From the NCBI GenBank assembly GCA_030429345.1, contig JAUIFJ010000012.1:1-64000 (forward strand): a stretch of DNA of 64,000 nucleotides, read 5' to 3'. How positions within the stretch are numbered: the first letter of the stretch is position 1; every line of letters starts with the position of its first letter. The stretch is from a bacterium. Lineage in GTDB: Bacteria > CAIWAD01. Under the pieces are notes generated by a model. That model saw only the letters and a list, made by a program, of their open reading frames with translations. It had not been told where the DNA came from and did no database searches. The position numbers were made by a program, and so were the translations under genes. Shown one piece after another: positions 4,043-56,684 of the stretch.

Positions 4043-4896
4043 CTTTTCGGCGGACCGTCCAGCACGGGCAGGAAACCGCGCTCCGGTACGGCCTGTAACA
4101 CGGCCTGCGGCCGGGGGCAGCCGTACTCGGCGGCGGCCGTGAAGACGACCAGATTGGGCCTCGGACTGTAGACGCCGCTGCTGTGCGTATGGCCGCAGAG
4201 CACGGTCAGCCGACAGGCCGGCCTTTCCGCGGCAAAGGCCAGCAGGACGTCTCCCGCGGCCTGGCAGCTGAACCAGGGCAGCCAGTCCGCGTTCGAGATC
4301 GCGCCCTCATGCCAGCTGGCTCCCTTGAAGGGAGGCACATGGAGTACGACGAGCAGCTCGTCCACGGAAGCCGGGCAGGCCTCCAGCTGCTCCTTCAGCC
4401 TCGCGCCGGCCTCGCTGCCCAGGCGGCGCAGGACCTGGACCCGTTCCCGGCGGGAAAGCTCCTGCAGGTCCTCGATCAGGCGAAAGTCATTGAGGAACAC
4501 AGGCGAGGTCATTGGATTGCCCAGGCGGGCATCGCCCCAGCCATCCACTCCCACGATCGCCGTCTTCTCACCGAAGAGCAGGGGTTCCGCCTCGTTCAGG
4601 TAGACCAGCAAGGGCAGGGTTTGACACAGGTCCCGGATCTCCCGGCGGACGCCGGCGATCGAGCCGTGGTAGTAGTCGTGGTTTCCGAGCACGAAGTACA
4701 GGGGTCGCTCGACGATCCGGACGAAGTCCGCCAGGCAGGTCGCCAGCGACCGCGCCTGGCTGATGTCCCCGGACAGCAGCCAGGCCTCGAGGGACCGTTC
4801 TTTCAGGCGATGGAAGAAGGCTTCGCGTTCCTCGTGATCCAGGAAATCCAGGTGGATGTCGGAGAGCCAGCCGAATCGCAGGGGGCCTTCAGCCAC
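4039..4896 (-). CDS. Calcineurin-like metallophosphoesterase translationally coupled to selD
   Basis: 285-aa cytoplasmic protein with the five metallophosphoesterase blocks: SDIHLD near residue 12, GDIS, GNHDYY, a histidine in VVLHVPP, and GHTHSSG near the C-terminus. These bind a dinuclear metal centre; the substrate is unknown. It starts at a GTG whose eight bases (GTGGCTGA) overlap the end of selD, so the two genes are almost certainly one transcript and translationally coupled. A role in selenium metabolism would be inference from position only. Confidence 0.88.
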   Translation of the reverse strand: MAEGPLRFGWLSDIHLDFLDHEEREAFFHRLKERSLEAWLLSGDISQARSLATCLADFVRIVERPLYFVLGNHDYYHGSIAGVRREIRDLCQTLPLLVYLNEAEPLLFGEKTAIVGVDGWGDARLGNPMTSPVFLNDFRLIEDLQELSRRERVQVLRRLGSEAGARLKEQLEACPASVDELLVVLHVPPFKGASWHEGAISNADWLPWFSCQAAGDVLLAFAAERPACRLTVLCGHTHSSGVYSPRPNLVVFTAAAEYGCPRPQAVLQAVPERGFLPVLDGPPKS

Positions 4897-5953
4897 GGAC
4901 TATTTCCAGCCTCTTCTTCCCGTCGCCGGCCAGGACCTGCCCGATGCGTGAGACAGGCACATCCGCCTCGCGCAAGGCCTTCTCGGCCTCCTCCGCCGCT
5001 CCCTCTGGCAGGGCGACCAGCAGGCCGCCGCTGGTCAGGGGGTCGACAAGCAGCTCGCGATCAATGCGGTCAACGGAGTCCTCGACCTTCCACCAGGACT
5101 GGACCAGCAGACGGTTGGGGCCGTTGGATCCCGTGCTCACTCCGGCCTCGTACATCTCTCGCGCCTCGGCAAGCACGGGCACGCGCCCGGCATGGATCCG
5201 CAGACAGACTTCGCCCTGGTTGCTCATCTCCATGGCGTGGCCCGCCAGGCCGAAACCCGTGATGTCCGTGCAGGCATGGACCGGAAAGTCCTGCAGCACC
5301 TCGCAGGGAACGCGGTTCAGCTCCGAGGCCTGCTCCAGGCAGGCCTGCATGGCGGACTGTGATACTTTGCCCTTCAGGTTGGCATTGAAGAGCACCCCGC
5401 TGCCCAGTTTCTTCGTCATCAGCAGGATGTCTCCGGGACGGGCGCCCACGTTGCGCCAGATCCGCTCCGGGTGCACGATGCCGGTCACGGCGAGGCCGAA
5501 CTTGGGCTCCTCGTCCATGATCGTGTGTCCCCCGACCAGCTGGGCTCCCGCCTCGGCGATCTTGATCGCCGCTCCGCGAATGATGTCGTGCAGGATCTCC
5601 TCGGGCAGCTTGTCCGAGGGAAAGGCGACCAGGTTGAGGCAGGTCAGTGGCCGCCCTCCCATGGCGTAGATGTCACTCAGCGAATTGGCCGCCGCCACCT
5701 TGCCGAAGATCTCGCCGTCATCGACGGGCGGAGTAATGAAATCCGCCGTGTTGACGAGCGCACGCTCCCCGTCCAGACGGTAGACGCCGGCGTCGTCGCT
5801 GGTCTCGAAGCCCACCAGCAGGGCCGGATCCCGCGGAAGATCAAGCTGTCCGAGGGCTCTCGCCAGTCCGACCGGACTGAACTTGGCAGCTCAACCGCAG
5901 GTCTTGGCCAGGCTGGTCAGCGTGGCCGCGCCCGCCAGTTTCTTCCAGAACAT
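4889..5953 (-). CDS. selD: Selenide, water dikinase (SelD), itself a selenoprotein
   Basis: SelD makes selenophosphate from selenide and ATP, the selenium donor for Sec-tRNA. Read from the ATG at 5953 the protein is 354 aa. Codon 21 is an in-frame TGA (5891-5893) in the context T-C-G-U-A-A-K. This matches the family's catalytic Cys/Sec followed three residues later by lysine (here Lys24). Downstream come ETSDDAGVY, TADFITPPVDD and GGHTIMDEEP, typical of SelD. A gene begun after the TGA would lack the catalytic residue and the conserved N-terminal segment. A hairpin follows the TGA at bacterial-SECIS spacing. The gene itself terminates on TGA, so UGA is read both ways in one message. Confidence 0.93.
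5864..5893 (-). promoter_or_regulatory. Bacterial SECIS-like hairpin in selD
   Basis: Counting the U of UGA as base 1, CAGTCC (15-20) pairs with GGACTG (25-30) around the loop GGTC (21-24). G-U in the loop falls at 22-23, within one base of the position in E. coli fdhF, where SelB contacts the loop. The element is inside the coding sequence, as bacterial SECIS elements are. Confidence 0.75.
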
Positions 5954-26539: not shown

Positions 26540-26553
26540 TTGACGCGGATCAA
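26540..26553. promoter_or_regulatory. FNR/CRP-like site upstream of the cytidylate-kinase-like gene
   Basis: TTGACGCGGATCAA matches the FNR consensus TTGAT-N4-ATCAA at 9 of 10 positions. It overlaps the hydF stop and lies upstream of the next gene. Binding protein and function are inferred. Confidence 0.5.
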
Positions 26554-27791
26554 ACGAGCGCCTGCGGAACTTGGTCCTCGAGCAGGGTCCCGCTTTCGGG
26601 AAAGGGCGCCAGGACCCGCTCCAGCAGCCCATGAAGGGCCGCGATTACCGTTCCGAAATTGCCCAGCGGAACCCGGGCCTCTTCGCAGATCGCCTGGCGC
26701 CTGCGCAGCTCCGCCGGATTCAGCGTGCAGGCTCCGCAATGGACGGCCAGGGCCAGGCCGGCTGGATCCGCGGGAAAATCGTGTCCGCGGCAATGCTCGA
26801 AGCGCAGGCGGACACCGTTGCACTCCTCGAGCCAGCGGGGGAGTTTGACCCGCGCGATGTCCTCTTCGGTCGGATGGTGGGCGCAGGCTTCGGCGATCAG
26901 CACCCGGTCGCCTTCCCGCAGTCTGCGGGCAGCCCGTGCTCCGCGGGCAAAGCCGGCCAGGTCCCCCTGCAGCCGGGCAAAGAGCACCGAGAAGGTGCTC
27001 AGGGGAACACCTGCCGGTGTATCACGGGCGACGGAGGCCAGGGCCTGCGAGTCGCAAAGCACCAGCTGTGGGGGCTCCCGCATGCAGTCAAGGGCCGCCG
27101 GCAGGTCGGCCGTGTCCGTCGACAGGGCCAGGGCGCGGCGATCCAGCAGTTCCCGCAGGACCCGCGCCTGGGGCATGATCAGCCGGCCCGCCGGGGCCGC
27201 CGAATCCTGGGGCATGACCAGCACCACACGATCCCCGGCCTGGACCAGGCCCTCCAGCGGACTGAGTTGACGTGGTGCGCGTGCCAGCAGGAAATCGGCC
27301 ACTTCCTGCCGCAGCTTCTCCAGTCCTTCCGGACGGCGTGAACTGACAGCCAGCGGCTGCAGACACTGCGCGGCCAGTTCGCCGACCGCCGATGGGTCCG
27401 GGCCTCCCCGGTCCGCCTGGCTGAAGAGCGGCAGGACGGGCAGGCCGCGTCGGCGGCAGGTGGCCAACAGGTCCTGCTCTGCCCGGCCCCAGACGCCCGG
27501 CGGAATCAGCAGCAGCACGAGGTCCGCACTCTCCAGCGCTTTCCAGGTCCTGCCGGCGCGCTTCCCCCCCAGGGGACTGTTGTCTTCCAGGCCGGCCGTG
27601 TCGATCATCAATACCGGACCGAAGGGGCGCCACTCCATTCCGCGGCGCACGGGATCCGTCGTCGTGCCGGGCGTGTCCGCGACCAGGCTTGTCTCACGCC
27701 TCGTCAGGGCGTTCATCAGGGCGGACTTGCCGGCGTTGCAGCGGCCCGTCAACACGATGTGGGGCCGCATGCTGTTGGGAGTGTGTTGCAT
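26550..27791 (-). CDS. hydF: [FeFe]-hydrogenase maturation GTPase HydF
   Basis: 413-aa HydF, the scaffold on which the 2Fe subcluster is assembled before transfer to the hydrogenase. The N-terminal GTPase domain has LTGRCNAGKSALMNALT, DTPGTTTD and DTAGLED. The C-terminal cluster domain has CAHH near the EDIARVKLP segment and HCGAC, fitting the HydF CxH...HCxxC pattern. The ATG at 27791 follows GGAAGAG. hydG lies 70 bp upstream on the same strand; hydE and the hydrogenase subunits are not in this window. Confidence 0.93.
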   Translation of the reverse strand: MQHTPNSMRPHIVLTGRCNAGKSALMNALTRRETSLVADTPGTTTDPVRRGMEWRPFGPVLMIDTAGLEDNSPLGGKRAGRTWKALESADLVLLLIPPGVWGRAEQDLLATCRRRGLPVLPLFSQADRGGPDPSAVGELAAQCLQPLAVSSRRPEGLEKLRQEVADFLLARAPRQLSPLEGLVQAGDRVVLVMPQDSAAPAGRLIMPQARVLRELLDRRALALSTDTADLPAALDCMREPPQLVLCDSQALASVARDTPAGVPLSTFSVLFARLQGDLAGFARGARAARRLREGDRVLIAEACAHHPTEEDIARVKLPRWLEECNGVRLRFEHCRGHDFPADPAGLALAVHCGACTLNPAELRRRQAICEEARVPLGNFGTVIAALHGLLERVLAPFPESGTLLEDQVPQALV

Positions 27792-27861
27792 GGCTCTTCC
27801 GGCGCGTGAAGCATGGCGGCACTCGCGATGCCGACCACCGTGGTCCACCTGCCCGTTCCCT

Positions 27862-29280
27862 CTAGAAGTACAGATCCCGGACTTCCGTCTCACGCAGTTC
27901 CTCCAGCCGCAGGACCAGCTTGCGCTTGAGCGGGCCTTCTTTCATCTCCTTCAGGGAGCGGGCGATGCAGCTCTCGCCGGCCTTGCGCGTCTGGGGGCCG
28001 GCATAGTCCTGCAGGTACTCGCAGAGCGTCAGCAGCCCGTTCGGGGTGCAGTACTGCTCGATGAAGCCGGGAATCGCGTACTCCATGAACTCCTCGCCGG
28101 TGCGGCCCACGCGGTAGCAGGCCGTGCAGAAGCTGGGAATGTGGTCATGGGCCAGCAGGTCGTGGATCACCTCGTCCAGGCTGCGCATGTCGCCCAGTTC
28201 GAACTGCTCGCGGTCCAGGTGCTGCACCGCCCGTTCGCGCGTGTAGCCGCCCAGCTCGATGCAGCTGCCGGCGTCGATCTGTGAGACACCCAGCTCGAGC
28301 GCCTCGCGGCGCACGCGGGCCGATTCGCGCGCGGTGACGATCAACCCGGTGTAGGGGACGGCGCAGCGCAGGATCGCCGTCAGGCGCAGGAAGTCCTCGT
28401 CGCCGACCCGCCAGGGAAAGGCCTCCTTCAGGCCCGAGGCCGGCTGAAGGCGCGGCACGCTGATCGTGTGCGCTCCCACTCCGTAGCGTTCCAGCAGGTA
28501 GCGGCTGTGGGCAACCAGTCCGAGCACCTCGCCCCTCCAGTCGGAAAGGCCGAAGAGTACGCCGATGCCCACGTCCTCGCAGCCCGCCTCGAAGGCGCGG
28601 CTCAGGCTGTCCAGCCTGTACTGGTAGTCCCCCTTGCGGGTCTGCGCCGGATGCACGCGGGCATAGCTTTGCGGGTCGTAGGTCTCCTGAAAGATCTGCC
28701 AGGTTCCGATGCCCGCCTGAACGACTTCGCGGAAACCGTCGTGATCCATGGGAGCCGCGTTGATGTTCACGCGCCGGATCTCGCCCCGGCCTTCACGGAT
28801 CCTGTAGACGGATTCCACGGTTTCGGCGATGTAGCGGGCGTCGTAGTCGGGGTGCTCGCCGAAGACCAGGATCAGCCGCTTGTGCCCCTGTCGCTGCAGC
28901 GCGCGCACCTGGGCTTCCAGTTCCTCCGGTTCCAGGCTTTGGCGCTGAGCCTCGCGATTGCTTCGGCGGAAGCCGCAATAGCTGCAGTCGTTGACGCACT
29001 CGTTGCCGACATAGAGCGGAGCGAAAAGCACGATCCGGTTTCCGTATACGTCGCGCTTCAGTTGCCGCGCCGTGGCGAGAATCCTGTCGATCTGGCGCGG
29101 CTCGGATGCGCGCAGCAGGCAGGCGGTCTGTTCGAGATCCAGGGGGGTCCTGGCAAGACTTTGCTGCAGGATCTCTTCCAGTCGCGCGTCCTCGACCGCG
29201 CCCTGTTCGGCCAGCAGATCCGGGATCCGCGCCTCGGCAATGAAGTCCCGCGAGTTCCGGGACAAACGACCCTTCTGCAT
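27862..29280 (-). CDS. hydG: [FeFe]-hydrogenase maturase HydG (radical SAM tyrosine lyase)
   Basis: 472-aa radical SAM enzyme that cleaves tyrosine to make the CO and CN ligands of the H-cluster. The radical SAM cluster motif CX3CX2C is at Cys95, Cys99 and Cys102. The C-terminal auxiliary-cluster motif CX2CX22C is complete (SFCTACYR ... EQYCTPN), which separates HydG from ThiH. It starts at an ATG after AGGAGG. Tyrosine chemistry and the adjacent tryptophanase hint at amino-acid fermentation with H2 evolution, as inference. Confidence 0.95.
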   Translation of the reverse strand: MQKGRLSRNSRDFIAEARIPDLLAEQGAVEDARLEEILQQSLARTPLDLEQTACLLRASEPRQIDRILATARQLKRDVYGNRIVLFAPLYVGNECVNDCSYCGFRRSNREAQRQSLEPEELEAQVRALQRQGHKRLILVFGEHPDYDARYIAETVESVYRIREGRGEIRRVNINAAPMDHDGFREVVQAGIGTWQIFQETYDPQSYARVHPAQTRKGDYQYRLDSLSRAFEAGCEDVGIGVLFGLSDWRGEVLGLVAHSRYLLERYGVGAHTISVPRLQPASGLKEAFPWRVGDEDFLRLTAILRCAVPYTGLIVTARESARVRREALELGVSQIDAGSCIELGGYTRERAVQHLDREQFELGDMRSLDEVIHDLLAHDHIPSFCTACYRVGRTGEEFMEYAIPGFIEQYCTPNGLLTLCEYLQDYAGPQTRKAGESCIARSLKEMKEGPLKRKLVLRLEELRETEVRDLYF

Positions 29281-29328
29281 AGCGCCTCCTGATTTGTTAA
29301 TAATTTCACATGAAGCAAGTCCTTCGCC

Positions 29329-29342
29329 TTGCGTCAGATCAA
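29329..29342. promoter_or_regulatory. FNR-like site upstream of hydG
   Basis: TTGCGTCAGATCAA matches TTGAT-N4-ATCAA at 8 of 10 positions, about 50 bp upstream of the hydG start and in the shared region with the rubrerythrin-like gene. Confidence 0.45.
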
Positions 29343-29448
29343 GCGGGGACGCTTTTTCAGGAGGCATTTTCGGGCACCGCCAAAGGGTCGCCAGAAACCG
29401 CGGGACGCGAAAGGAAAAAGGGTTCTCCTTCTTTCATCGCCCCGTCAC

Positions 29449-29462
29449 TTGACGAAAGGCAA
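29449..29462. promoter_or_regulatory. Weaker FNR-like dyad upstream of the rubrerythrin-like gene
   Basis: TTGACGAAAGGCAA keeps the TTG...CAA arms but matches only 7 of 10 consensus positions; about 58 bp upstream of the start. Confidence 0.3.
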
Positions 29463-29519
29463 GAACACGATCCGCGGGCGCTCTAACTTGGGTGCACCTT
29501 AGCAAGCATGGGAGGAAGC

Positions 29520-30044
29520 ATGGCCGTCAAGGAACTCCACTTCAATTCGGTGGAAGAGATTTTCAAGTACGCCATCACGGTGGAAAACCGCGGATTCGAG
29601 TTCTATCGCAATGCCGCCGAGCGCACGAGCAATGATACCGCGCGCCAGTTCTTCGAGGAGTTTGCCGAGGAAGAGCGCGAGCACAAGCGCGTGCTGGCCG
29701 AACTCTACAAGACCTGGAAGGCCGAAGGGAAGTGGAAGGATGACGTCCTGCGCGAGGAACACAAGCACGGCATGGACATCCACGACCCGATCATCGGCCA
29801 GGCCATCCGCAAGGGACTGGCCAGCGACAGCTACGACACGACCGCCGTGGACATTGCCATCGTGCTGGAGAAAGAGGCCAGCGCCTTCTACAGCACGGCT
29901 GCCGACCGCGTCGAGGACCCGGAACTGCAGCGCATCCTGCGCTGGCTCGCCGAGTGGGAAGACGACCACCTGCGCTACATGGTGGAACTGAACGAGAGCC
30001 TGCGCGAGACCTATTGGAACGACAACAACTTCTGGCCCTTCTAA
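29520..30044 (+). CDS. Rubrerythrin-like ferritin-superfamily protein
   Basis: 174-aa four-helix di-iron protein. Glutamate-rich motifs are seen in ENRGFEFY, EEFAEEEREHKRVL, EKEASAFY and EWEDDHLRYM, giving the two E-x-x-H-type metal sites. There is no rubredoxin domain, so it is the short type. Relatives detoxify peroxide or handle iron under low oxygen. The ATG at 29520 follows GGAGGA; an ATG 12 nt earlier lacks that spacing. Divergent from hydG. Confidence 0.85.
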   Translation: MAVKELHFNSVEEIFKYAITVENRGFEFYRNAAERTSNDTARQFFEEFAEEEREHKRVLAELYKTWKAEGKWKDDVLREEHKHGMDIHDPIIGQAIRKGLASDSYDTTAVDIAIVLEKEASAFYSTAADRVEDPELQRILRWLAEWEDDHLRYMVELNESLRETYWNDNNFWPF

Positions 30045-30187: not shown

Positions 30188-31882
30188 ATGAAACCTTTGC
30201 TGCTCGCGCTGCTACTCGCGCAGGCCGGACACCTCCATGCCGAACACGCCATCGGTTCGACCCCGGCGGATTTCAGTGGAACACCGACCCGTCCCCAGGA
30301 ATTCGGAAACAACTGGTCGCTGTCGGACCACCAGGGAAAGGTGGTGCTGGTCAATTTCGGCGCCATCTGGTGACCGGGCTGCAATTCGGAGTTTCCGCAT
30401 TTACAGAACGACTTTGAAAGCGCCTACCCGGAAGAATTCTTCGAGCTGGTCCACGTGGATGTGGACAATCGCCCGGCCTCCGGCCTGAACAACCACTGGG
30501 CCCATGACAATCCCACCTTTCCCGTGCTGACCGGCGCCGCGGGCATTTTCGGCGCCTGGGGCACGGGCTACATTCCCCATACGACCATCCTGGACCCCCA
30601 GGGCGTGGTTCGCGGCAACTGGGTCGGCTGGAGCAGTTCCGCCGGCAACGCCATGCACTCGGTGATCCAGGCCTGGCTGCCCGCACCCGCGGAGCCGGAA
30701 GTCGCGGCGCTGCATTTTTCCGGCGACGCCAACAATGATGCCCACCCGGATCCCGGCGAGCTCTTGCAGCTGGAACTCGTGCTGGCCAATCCGGCCGGCC
30801 TGCAAGGCGCCCAGAACCTGAGCTGCAACCTTGAAACCGCCGGCCCCTGGCTGACGGTGACCCAGGCCCAGACCTTCGCGGACCAGCTGCCCGGCGGCGG
30901 CCAGACAGCCTGCGCACCGCTGCTGGTACTGCAGGTCGATCCGGCGTCTCCGCGTCACACGGCCCAGCTGCAGTTCAGCTGGAGCGCGACCGGAGCGCAG
31001 GGCGAAGCCCTTTCCGGAAGCTTCAGCGCGCCGCTGGACGTCGCGCGGCACCCGCTGCTCGTCGTCGATCGTGATCCAGCCTACGACGAGGCCGGTCCCG
31101 TGATCGCCGCCCTGGACCAGCTCGGCCTTGCCTACGACCTGTGGACCGGCGGCTGCGCGGACCAGCCGAGTGATTCGCTCAAGTCCTGGAACACGGTGCT
31201 CTGGCTGGGCGGCCGACAGTTCCCCGCCCTGGACGAGGCCGACCTCTTCCAGGCTCGACTTCATGTCTCACAAGGTCGTCGGTTCTTCCTGTCCGCACAG
31301 CATCTGCCGTCCGCGGCAGCCGACCTGGCGGAGATCTTCGCCATCCAGGAGGGCGCATTCGCCCCGGGACCGATCCTGAGCGGCGTGCCCGGATCGCCCT
31401 TCGAGAACGGCTTCTGCCAGCTCAACACACCCGGCGGCGCGCAGAACAGCATTCATCCCAACGAGCTGCTCCTGCTGGAAGGGGCCGAATCGCTCTTCGA
31501 CTGGGCCCCCGGACCGGGAGCCGCGCTTGCCGGAAGACGAGACGCGACGGGACGGGCGCTCTGCGCGGCTTTTCCCCTGGAGGCTGTCGGCACGCAGATC
31601 GAAGGCTGGGTCACCATTCCGGAGCTGCTTTCGGAATGCCTTGCCTGGCTGGACCAGCCTCAGGAACTGCCTGCGCCGCATCTTGAGATCCAGCGCCTTG
31701 CGGACGGGAGCCTGCGCCTGCAATGGAACAGCATCCCTGGCGCAGCGGGCTATCATGTCTGGACCGGGACGCATCCTTTCCAGGTCGGCTCCTTGCTCGA
31801 CACGACGCCGGATACCACGTATACACTCCCCGCGCCTTCTGCCGGCATGGCGGGCTACCGCGTGGAGGCCAGCATCGACTAG
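30188..31882 (+). CDS. Secreted thioredoxin-like selenoprotein with C-terminal FN3-like domain
   Basis: 564-aa protein read through an in-frame TGA at 30371-30373. A signal peptide (KPLLLALLLAQAGHLHA) is followed by a TlpA/thioredoxin-like domain whose active site is W-U-P-G-C: Sec62 and Cys65, a UxxC in place of CxxC. The reading frame continues without a break to the TAG at 31882, passing through an Ig-like middle region, a LLVVDRDPAYDEAG segment and a fibronectin-like end. A SECIS-like hairpin follows the UGA. A paralogue with the same arrangement follows at 32089. A nonsense mutation is unlikely because the domain is intact on both sides. Role presumed disulfide or selenosulfide exchange outside the cytoplasm. 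Confidence 0.88.
30371..30401 (+). promoter_or_regulatory. Bacterial SECIS-like hairpin in thioredoxin-like gene 1
   Basis: CGGA and TCCG (30387-30390, 30394-30397) pair around the loop GTT, with AAT/ATT outside a single T-C mismatch. G-U in the loop is 21-22 nt from the first base of UGA. Weakest stem of the four. Confidence 0.65.
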
Positions 31883-31913
31883 CCTGGGTCGCAATTCACT
31901 TCTGCACCCTTCG

Positions 31914-31947
31914 AAAACCCTTTGCAGCCGCGAAGGGTTTTCTTTCC
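31914..31947 (+). terminator. Terminator after selenoprotein 1
   Basis: AAAACCCTT and AAGGGTTTT form a stem with a 10-nt loop, followed by CTTTCC. It implies that the second selenoprotein has its own promoter or is reached by readthrough. Confidence 0.65.
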
Positions 31948-32088: not shown

Positions 32089-32802
32089 ATGAAAAGCCTG
32101 ATTCCGGCCCTGCTGCTGGTTCCCCTGCTGGCAGCCCGGGCCGAGTACCCCGCGGGATCGACCCCGCCCGATTTCACTGGAACGACAACCCAACCAGGCC
32201 TCTACGGCCCGGAGTGGACCCTCTCCGATCAGGCCGGCAAGATCGTGCTGCTGCATTGGGGCGCCTGGTGGTGACCGCCCTGCAATGCGGAGTTTCCGCA
32301 GCTGCAGAACCAGATCCGCGAGTTCTATCCGGAGGACGTGCTGGCCATCGCTCATGTGGAGATCACGACCCAGAGCGCCTCTTTCCTCAATAACCACTGG
32401 GGGCAGTACGATCCGACCTTTCCGCTGTTGACCGGCCTGGACAATCTCTGGCCGGCCTGGACCGTCAACGGGCTGCGTCCGCTGGTGACGATCCTGGATC
32501 CGCAGGGCGTGGTCGTCGGCAACTGGACCTCCTACACGGAGAGCCACATTGACGACTTCCGCACTGCCATCGACTCGCTGCTTCCCCTGGAGGCACCGGT
32601 ACTGTCCATCGAGCGCATGGCCAATGGCATGCTGCGGCTGCACTGGACGGAAGTGGAAGGAGCCGGCAGCTATCGTCTGCTGCAGGCAGCCACTCCCTGG
32701 CAGGAAGGCATCGAGCTGATCCAGACTCCCCTGTTCGAACATGTGCTTGCCGCGCCCGCGCCCGGCCGCGGCTGGTTCCAGGTGGAAGCCCTGGCCCCCT
32801 GA
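32089..32802 (+). CDS. Secreted thioredoxin-like selenoprotein, short paralogue
   Basis: 237-aa protein read through an in-frame TGA at 32272-32274 to a TGA stop. It has a signal peptide (KSLIPALLLVPLLAARA), a TlpA-like domain with W-U-P-P-C (Sec62, Cys65), then NNHWGQYDPTFPLLTG, LVTILDPQGVVVGNW and a short FN3-like tail. Sec occupies the same residue number as in the upstream paralogue, and the two share NAEFPQLQN/NSEFPHLQN after the active site. The larger insert of the first protein is missing. The UGA is followed by the strongest SECIS-like hairpin of the set. The ribosome site (AGAGG) is modest. Confidence 0.9.
32272..32307 (+). promoter_or_regulatory. Bacterial SECIS-like hairpin in thioredoxin-like gene 2
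   Basis: TGCGGA pairs perfectly with TCCGCA around a GTT loop (32286-32300), with an outer CTGCA/TGCAG helix. G-U lies 21-22 nt from the start of UGA, the same as in the first paralogue. Confidence 0.78.
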
Positions 32803-32825: not shown

Positions 32826-32858
32826 GCCCTGCCCTCCACCTGGAGGGCAGGGCTTTTT
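32826..32858 (+). terminator. Strong terminator after selenoprotein 2
   Basis: GCCCTGCCCTCCA and its exact complement with a two-base centre, followed by TTTTT. Confidence 0.92.
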
Positions 32859-56009: not shown

Positions 56010-56684
56010 TTATTCCTCGGCCCCGGCGGCGATCATGCTGCGGGCAGCCTGCAGCAGCAGTTCCGGCTGCAGGCGGACCCGGTAGTCCGGATTGGCGTAG
56101 ACGAAATGAAGGACCCCCTCGCGATCCACCAGGAACACGGCCGGTACTGGCAACTGGTGATGATCACGCCCCGAATCGGCCTCCAGGTCGATGTCGAAGG
56201 ACTCCTTGTACTTTCGAACCAGGCTCTCCTCCACCTGGAAGGCAATGCCCATGGCGCGCGCCGCACGCATGTCGCTGTCGGAACACAGCAGGTAGCCCAC
56301 ACCCTCCTCGACTGCTGTATCACGCTGTTTCCCGGGGCGATCCGGGCTGACGGCGATCACCTGGCAACCCAGGGCAAGCAGTTCGTCCTCGATCTCCTGC
56401 AGCTCTCCCAACTGGAGAGTGCAGTAGGGTCACCAGCCGCCGCGGAAGAAGACGAGCACGGTCGGCTTCTTCGCCCACAGGCTGTCCAGGAGTACCTCCG
56501 AGCCATCGGCGAGCCGCAGCTGCAGAGCAGGGATCTGCGTACCGACCAGGCGCGGGCAGATCTGCTCCGCCGAATCGGCGACGGGGTGCTGCCCAGTACT
56601 CAGTGCCCTTGCCGCGAAGGGCATGAGCAGGAATCCCAGGGCGACAAGAAGTCGAATGGAACCCAGCGACACCTTCATCTTCAT
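56010..56684 (-). CDS. Exported peroxiredoxin-like selenoprotein
   Basis: 224-aa protein read through an in-frame TGA at 56430-56432 to TAA. The signal peptide (MKMKVSLGSIRLLVALGFLL) is followed by an AhpC/TSA-type domain. Its active site is FFRGGW-U-PYC: Sec85 and Cys88, the peroxiredoxin-like UxxC arrangement. After it come VIAVSPDRPGKQRD, SDMRAARAMGI and VPAVFLVDREGVLHFVY in order, so the frame is intact on both sides. The ATG at 56684 follows AAAGGA; an ATG 36 nt further upstream would precede the signal peptide and is less likely. A SECIS-like hairpin follows. It sits between two glycosidase-like genes on the same strand. Confidence 0.9.
56403..56432 (-). promoter_or_regulatory. Bacterial SECIS-like hairpin in the peroxiredoxin-like gene
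   Basis: CTCTCC (bases 14-19 from UGA) pairs with GGAGAG (25-30) around loop AGTTG, with G-U at 21-22, the same place as in the thioredoxin-like genes. Confidence 0.75.

Follow-up and report, generated by a model that had tools for sequence, protein, structure and literature searches.

An in-frame TGA at the active site of a probable exported thioredoxin selenoprotein with a large C-terminal region

Does a TGA inside a long reading frame end the protein, or is it read through as selenocysteine (Sec)? The question is raised by a locus (gene A, 30188–31882, forward strand) in the window, the stretch of 64,000 nucleotides of bacterial DNA analysed here. The frame of gene A runs from an ATG at 30188 through 61 codons to a TGA (codon 62, 30371–30373), and then through 502 sense codons to a TAG (31880–31882), so that readthrough would give a protein of 564 residues, Sec included. 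The TGA takes the place of the first, nucleophilic Cys of a thioredoxin active site (FGAIW-U-PGC), and Cys65 (30380–30382) supplies the other redox residue of the U-P-G-C motif. In the original prediction the TGA replaced the leading Cys in the active site of a TlpA-type thioredoxin (W-U-P-G-C), with the frame open for more than 500 codons to a TAG; the codon count and coordinates agree with it, as does the TGA column found in homologues. Truncation by normal annotation had likewise been foreseen: the sole product of mechanical ORF calling on gene A is a 475-residue ORF with a GTG start at 30455, and a standard annotation would therefore mangle the gene.

The product begins with a hydrophobic, signal-peptide-like segment (residues 1–18, 30188–30241, MKPLLLALLLAQAGHLHA), in whose sequence no lipobox Cys was seen. 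A ResA/TlpA-like thioredoxin domain follows (residues 20–165, 30245–30682), which matches AhpC-TSA with 42.5 bits (cut-off 26), both PF00578 and PF08534 being above their cut-offs. The domain has ResA and DsbE matches in the PDB, and its model overlays on 3gl3_A (Z 20.7, rmsd 1.8, 140 residues aligned). The thioredoxin fold, the U-x-x-C after the first strand and the E-x-P motif (EFP after UPGCNS) are all present, which places the domain in the TlpA/ResA-like thiol-disulfide oxidoreductase superfamily. Against the model for ResA proper (NF002854) gene A scores 49.4 bits, below the cut-off of 170; judged by this score, it is a relative of ResA and not ResA itself.

The conservation of the TGA was followed in homologues. 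A scan of the genome contigs with gene A alone as query gave no match, and an alignment was needed as query. In the codon alignment the TGA column is filled in all 9 homologues, and in relatives pN is smaller than pS on either side of the TGA. TGA-bearing copies amount to 14 genes in six genomes: the window's own genome (4.24 Mb, 98% complete) has three, A, B and a further copy C, with one TGA each, and five related genomes (G001–G005) have eleven, together with three copies that carry Ser instead. One of these genomes, G004, presumably belongs to the same class as that of the window. More widely, about 40 homologues with the same TGA occur in Delongbacteria-, KSB1- and Neomarinimicrobiota-type genomes, and a single alignment column holds the TGA in homologues down to some 25–30% identity; named matches include Candidatus Delongbacteria BS150m-G50, KSB1 BS750m-G25, LaPlata_bin-1558, SulCav_PC08 and several Neomarinimicrobiota. 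In the phylum to which homologue L096 belongs, 245 genomes gave 31 best matches, 28 of which contain a TGA; it was read at the active-site position in 23 of the 28, and then in four more. For the C-terminal part of gene A compared with paralogue C, pN (0.58) is close to pS (0.60), a result that can be read either as saturation or as weak constraint.

A homologue search for Cys or Sec at this position, proposed with the original prediction, thus turned up the TGA repeatedly, together with Cys forms at four loci (L095, L113, L121, L125). There are also Ser paralogues (L068, L071, L072; G-Q-T-A-S-Q-P-C), in which the second Cys is kept while TGA and hairpin are lost. A tree built from 77 domains unites the Sec genes of the family found in the window, and of its closest relatives, in one supported group, inside which the Ser genes are nested as a single branch (100/100); Sec genes cluster much more strongly in this tree than when the labels are shuffled. 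Sec, Cys and Ser forms make up a well-defined natural series within the family, in which the SECIS hairpin is gained or lost in step with the residue. Some copies are irregular. A Neomarinimicrobiota-type homologue (L115:1648) has an adjacent pair of in-frame TGAs, W-U-U-P-C. Another copy (L076:1500-1660) breaks at the active site, by decay or misassembly, and was kept out of the analysis. A TGA in the tail of L099 and L101 was considered as a second Sec and rejected, as homology ends at that TGA. In a distant genome, a small single-domain ResA-like protein (L077:976-1464, W-U-P-T-C) carries Sec among ordinary Cys proteins and shares the GGAGUUUCC hairpin core with the Sec-thioredoxin genes; this is perhaps an independent gain of Sec.

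Bacterial SECIS elements are constrained to have a G in the first two positions of the loop, a distance of 16–37 nt from the UGA and an MFE of −7.5 or lower (PMC13188914). The hairpin of gene A (30374–30406, forward strand) is in line with this: it lies directly 3′ of the TGA and has the core GGAG-NN-UCC, its apical loop (GUU, 30391–30393) is 17 nt after the UGA, and its MFE is −10.0. Over 21 sequences, 89% of the cells of the seven-pair helix are paired, and the covariation score is 0.438, whereas shuffling gives 0.114 (0/500) and sliding the helix gives no more than 0.088; a version with 12 sequences was run as well. Pair 17–27 is C-G, U-A or A-U in 21/21 sequences, with both sides changed in 7, and is never broken. 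Several Sec genes have a CGAG variant in which the pairing register is shifted by one, and these were left out of the 21-sequence set. The GGAGNNT core, counted at wobble positions, occurs in 33 of 41 Sec genes versus 1 of 30 Cys relatives, rows that are related to each other and not independent, so that the Fisher value should be taken as a rough indication; the hairpin itself is missing in the Cys and Ser relatives. Against synonymous shuffles, hairpins are significant (p<0.05) for gene B, G4a, G4b, L096, L100, L101 and G36; that of gene A is not extreme (p = 0.14), and the case for gene A therefore rests on comparison. Among the codons in its hairpin are TTT (14% of Phe) and TTA (0.3% of Leu). 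An Rfam search with E up to 5 returned nothing credible across genes A and B.

Gene B, a tandem paralogue 0.2 kb downstream of gene A (32089–32802, forward strand), encodes 237 residues that comprise a Sec-thioredoxin (W-U-P-P-C) and an FN3-like tail. Its TGA is the same codon 62 (32272–32274), followed by a SECIS-like hairpin (32275–32307, −16.3 kcal/mol, z −3.5) and, after the gene, by a terminator-like hairpin (32826–32853), all on the forward strand. Two more TGA genes lie on the reverse strand of the window. One is selD, for selenophosphate synthetase (4889–5953, start codon uncertain; 341 bits, cut-off 125), whose in-frame TGA (5893–5891, C-G-U-A-A-K) indicates that SelD is a selenoprotein itself. 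The other encodes an exported peroxiredoxin-like protein (56010–56684; TGA at 56432–56430, G-W-U-P-Y-C), with a SECIS-like hairpin (−18.5 kcal/mol, z −2.65) in a layout much like that of gene B. The original prediction mentioned none of these three genes. The rest of the Sec machinery is present in the same genome: a tRNA-Sec (54 bits, cut-off 47; ARAGORN anticodon tca), selB (307 bits, cut-off 242) and selA (499 bits, cut-off 268), the last two close together on one contig (C87). Among nine genomes bearing Sec-thioredoxin genes, selA is above cut-off in seven.

These observations bear on how UGA62 is read. If the TGA were a genuine stop, A and B would be decaying pseudogenes or would encode peptides of 61 residues, with the downstream frame separate or untranslated. 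TGA is indeed an ordinary stop here, ending 17 of the 42 likely genes of the window, and gene callers give only the 475-residue ORF. Against this stand the same codon in the catalytic column of genes from several phyla, the covarying hairpin, a selection that persists beyond the TGA together with the codon-position composition (GC of 0.66/0.44/0.74 before and 0.71/0.51/0.80 after, which are alike), and the terminator-like hairpin (31913–31942, forward strand) about 30 bases past the TAG and not after the TGA; we consider a genuine stop very improbable. Reassignment of UGA in this genome (for example to Trp or Gly), or plain low-level readthrough, would also account for a frame that stays open past the TGA. 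The 17 genes that end in TGA show that the code is not reassigned, the Sec machinery is complete, and the in-frame TGAs of the window with homology support (A, B, SelD and the peroxiredoxin-like gene) are all at a redox Cys or a known Sec position, so that we give this explanation even less credit than a genuine stop. Gene A is thus very probably a selenoprotein, an exported oxidoreductase with a thioredoxin domain, acting in thiol-disulfide (or related peroxide or persulfide) redox reactions, and with C-terminal domains for binding or anchoring. The central claim of the original prediction, that an exported TlpA/ResA-type thioredoxin carries Sec as the first residue of its active site, has strong support from the conserved TGA, the SECIS hairpin, the Sec machinery and the Cys homologues.

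For a selenoprotein of this kind we can propose the following mechanism. SelB and Sec-tRNA-Sec would decode UGA62 as selenocysteine by means of the downstream hairpin, to yield the 564-residue protein, and the signal peptide would direct its export. Outside the cytoplasm Sec62 would attack and Cys65 resolve, in thiol-disulfide exchange (or related peroxide or persulfide reduction) at the U-P-G-C motif; for location, redox direction and substrate, as for Sec insertion and export, this is what we infer. The C-terminal domains may bind, anchor or place the thioredoxin head in the envelope or at the surface, near a partner, and gene B would be a shorter tandem version of the same design. It is less likely, though worth weighing, that Sec is inserted in a domain that works mainly as a peroxidase, as a polysulfide or persulfide reductase, or as part of a selenium-carrying surface protein. 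Peroxide reduction is a frequent role of Sec, a rubrerythrin-like gene (29508–30044) adjoins gene A, and the PF00578/PF08534 match is above cut-off; but the motif is W-U-P-x-C, the closest relatives of known structure (ResA, DsbE/CcmG, TlpA) act as thiol-disulfide oxidoreductases, and the PxxxTxxC motif of peroxiredoxins is not at the site.

The C-terminal part of gene A was modelled with a mean pLDDT of about 80, the FN3-like tail being of lower confidence. A large C-terminal fusion had been predicted and is there; its description as Ig/FN3-like is too narrow, since the model adds a beta-sandwich and a GATase1-like domain before the FN3-like tail, all on the forward strand. The beta-sandwich (about residues 171–285, 30698–31042) contains a conserved loop, D-x-N-x-D..PDPGE (residues 180–191), that possibly binds Ca. 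The alpha/beta domain with a GATase1-like fold (about residues 288–490, 31049–31657) is best matched by 5xb7_B, a GH42 enzyme (Z 17.4, rmsd 2.8, 182 residues aligned), followed by 3soz_A (STM1381, Z 16.4–17.2) and IFT52 (5fmr_A, Z 16.3). It matches GATase1 enzymes in fold alone: at the nucleophile turn the alignment reads S-A-Q or S-S-Q in gene A and its aligned relatives, and because the catalytic Cys is missing, the domain more probably serves in binding or as a scaffold than as a catalyst. The FN3-like tail (31682–31879) recurs 0–6 codons from the stop in other proteins of the genome (L006, L008, L009, L014, L019), and is perhaps a sorting or anchoring module that replaces a type IX secretion (T9SS) tail.

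The sorting domain of T9SS type A cargo, TIGR04183, is absent from the hits of genes A and B, and surface export is therefore less certain for these two than for their relatives. It is above cut-off in copy C (35.1, cut-off 23) and in homologues from G001, G004, G005 and L096, and the T9SS channel SprA is present in 6 of 6 genomes tested, that of the window among them. Homologues keep the Sec head and vary the remainder, which may be a T9SS tail, a MAM-like region (in two) or, in L096, a thrombospondin/dockerin-like region, assigned partly by eye. We see an even chance that these genes represent a large unannotated class of FCB-type cell-surface selenoenzymes, in which Sec-thioredoxin heads are borne by scaffolds that are exported by the type IX route or anchored in the envelope and whose C-terminal domains (GATase1-like, MAM-like, thrombospondin-3/dockerin-like) can replace one another; such heads would carry out redox chemistry outside the outer membrane. 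We know of no electron donor in that location; if several of these proteins truly exit via T9SS, the question arises of what reduces the selenothiol beyond the outer membrane, and to what end.

The Sec-TlpA core is already known. A 2026 catalogue of 119 families/subfamilies lists a Sec-TlpA "thiol-disulfide isomerase-like protein" (cd02966, UxxC) that shares with gene A a TlpA/ResA-type thioredoxin domain, a UxxC with Sec first and a bacterial SECIS; it is described there with the cd02966 domain only, without fused beta-sandwich, GATase1-like or T9SS parts, and neither the architecture of gene A nor its phyla appear in that catalogue (PMC13188914). The view that exported Sec-thioredoxins are uncommon has to be qualified in the light of this entry, and of related proteins that are frequent in Neomarinimicrobiota. 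The Omp28-related selenoprotein NF045500, or GOS_C (PMC2398784, PMC13188914), is likewise a thioredoxin-like UxxC selenoprotein, from marine bacteria; homologue L096 matches its C-terminal region only (profile 257–377, 126.9 bits, cut-off 200), and the NF045500 model is not among the hits of genes A or B with E up to 1. NF041054, the WAxxUGC ResA-like selenoprotein, also has Sec in a ResA-like thioredoxin domain, but gene A scores 18.5 bits against it (cut-off 300) and has the motif W-U-P-G-C, not U-G-C. ResA, CcmG/DsbE and TlpA have the same fold and active-site position, with Cys where gene A has Sec and without such a large C-terminal region. The top Foldseek match, the C-terminal half of mycobacterial DipZ (2hyx, 5cyy), also joins a TlpA-like thioredoxin to a further domain, but is a Cys enzyme whose whole-length overlay with gene A is poor (rmsd about 21). 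As gene A is below the cut-off of every specific model searched, we count the fusion as a variant of the known Sec-TlpA. In the literature library searched, no paper links Delongbacteria and selenocysteine or Omp28 and selenoprotein, and for selenoprotein with type IX secretion there is one match, which looked unrelated from its title and abstract. The sources read seem to contain no description of the fusion, of a T9SS link among its relatives or of a distribution over these phyla. Because gene callers split these proteins, an exported selenoenzyme class that is apparently abundant in uncultured phyla is largely invisible.

Upstream of gene A (26550–30044), HydF-like and radical SAM/BATS-domain genes of the hydrogenase maturation type lie on the minus strand, and the rubrerythrin-like gene, on the plus strand, is just upstream. 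Such neighbours suggest anaerobic or microaerobic life, and envelope oxidant defence in a host of this kind is plausible.
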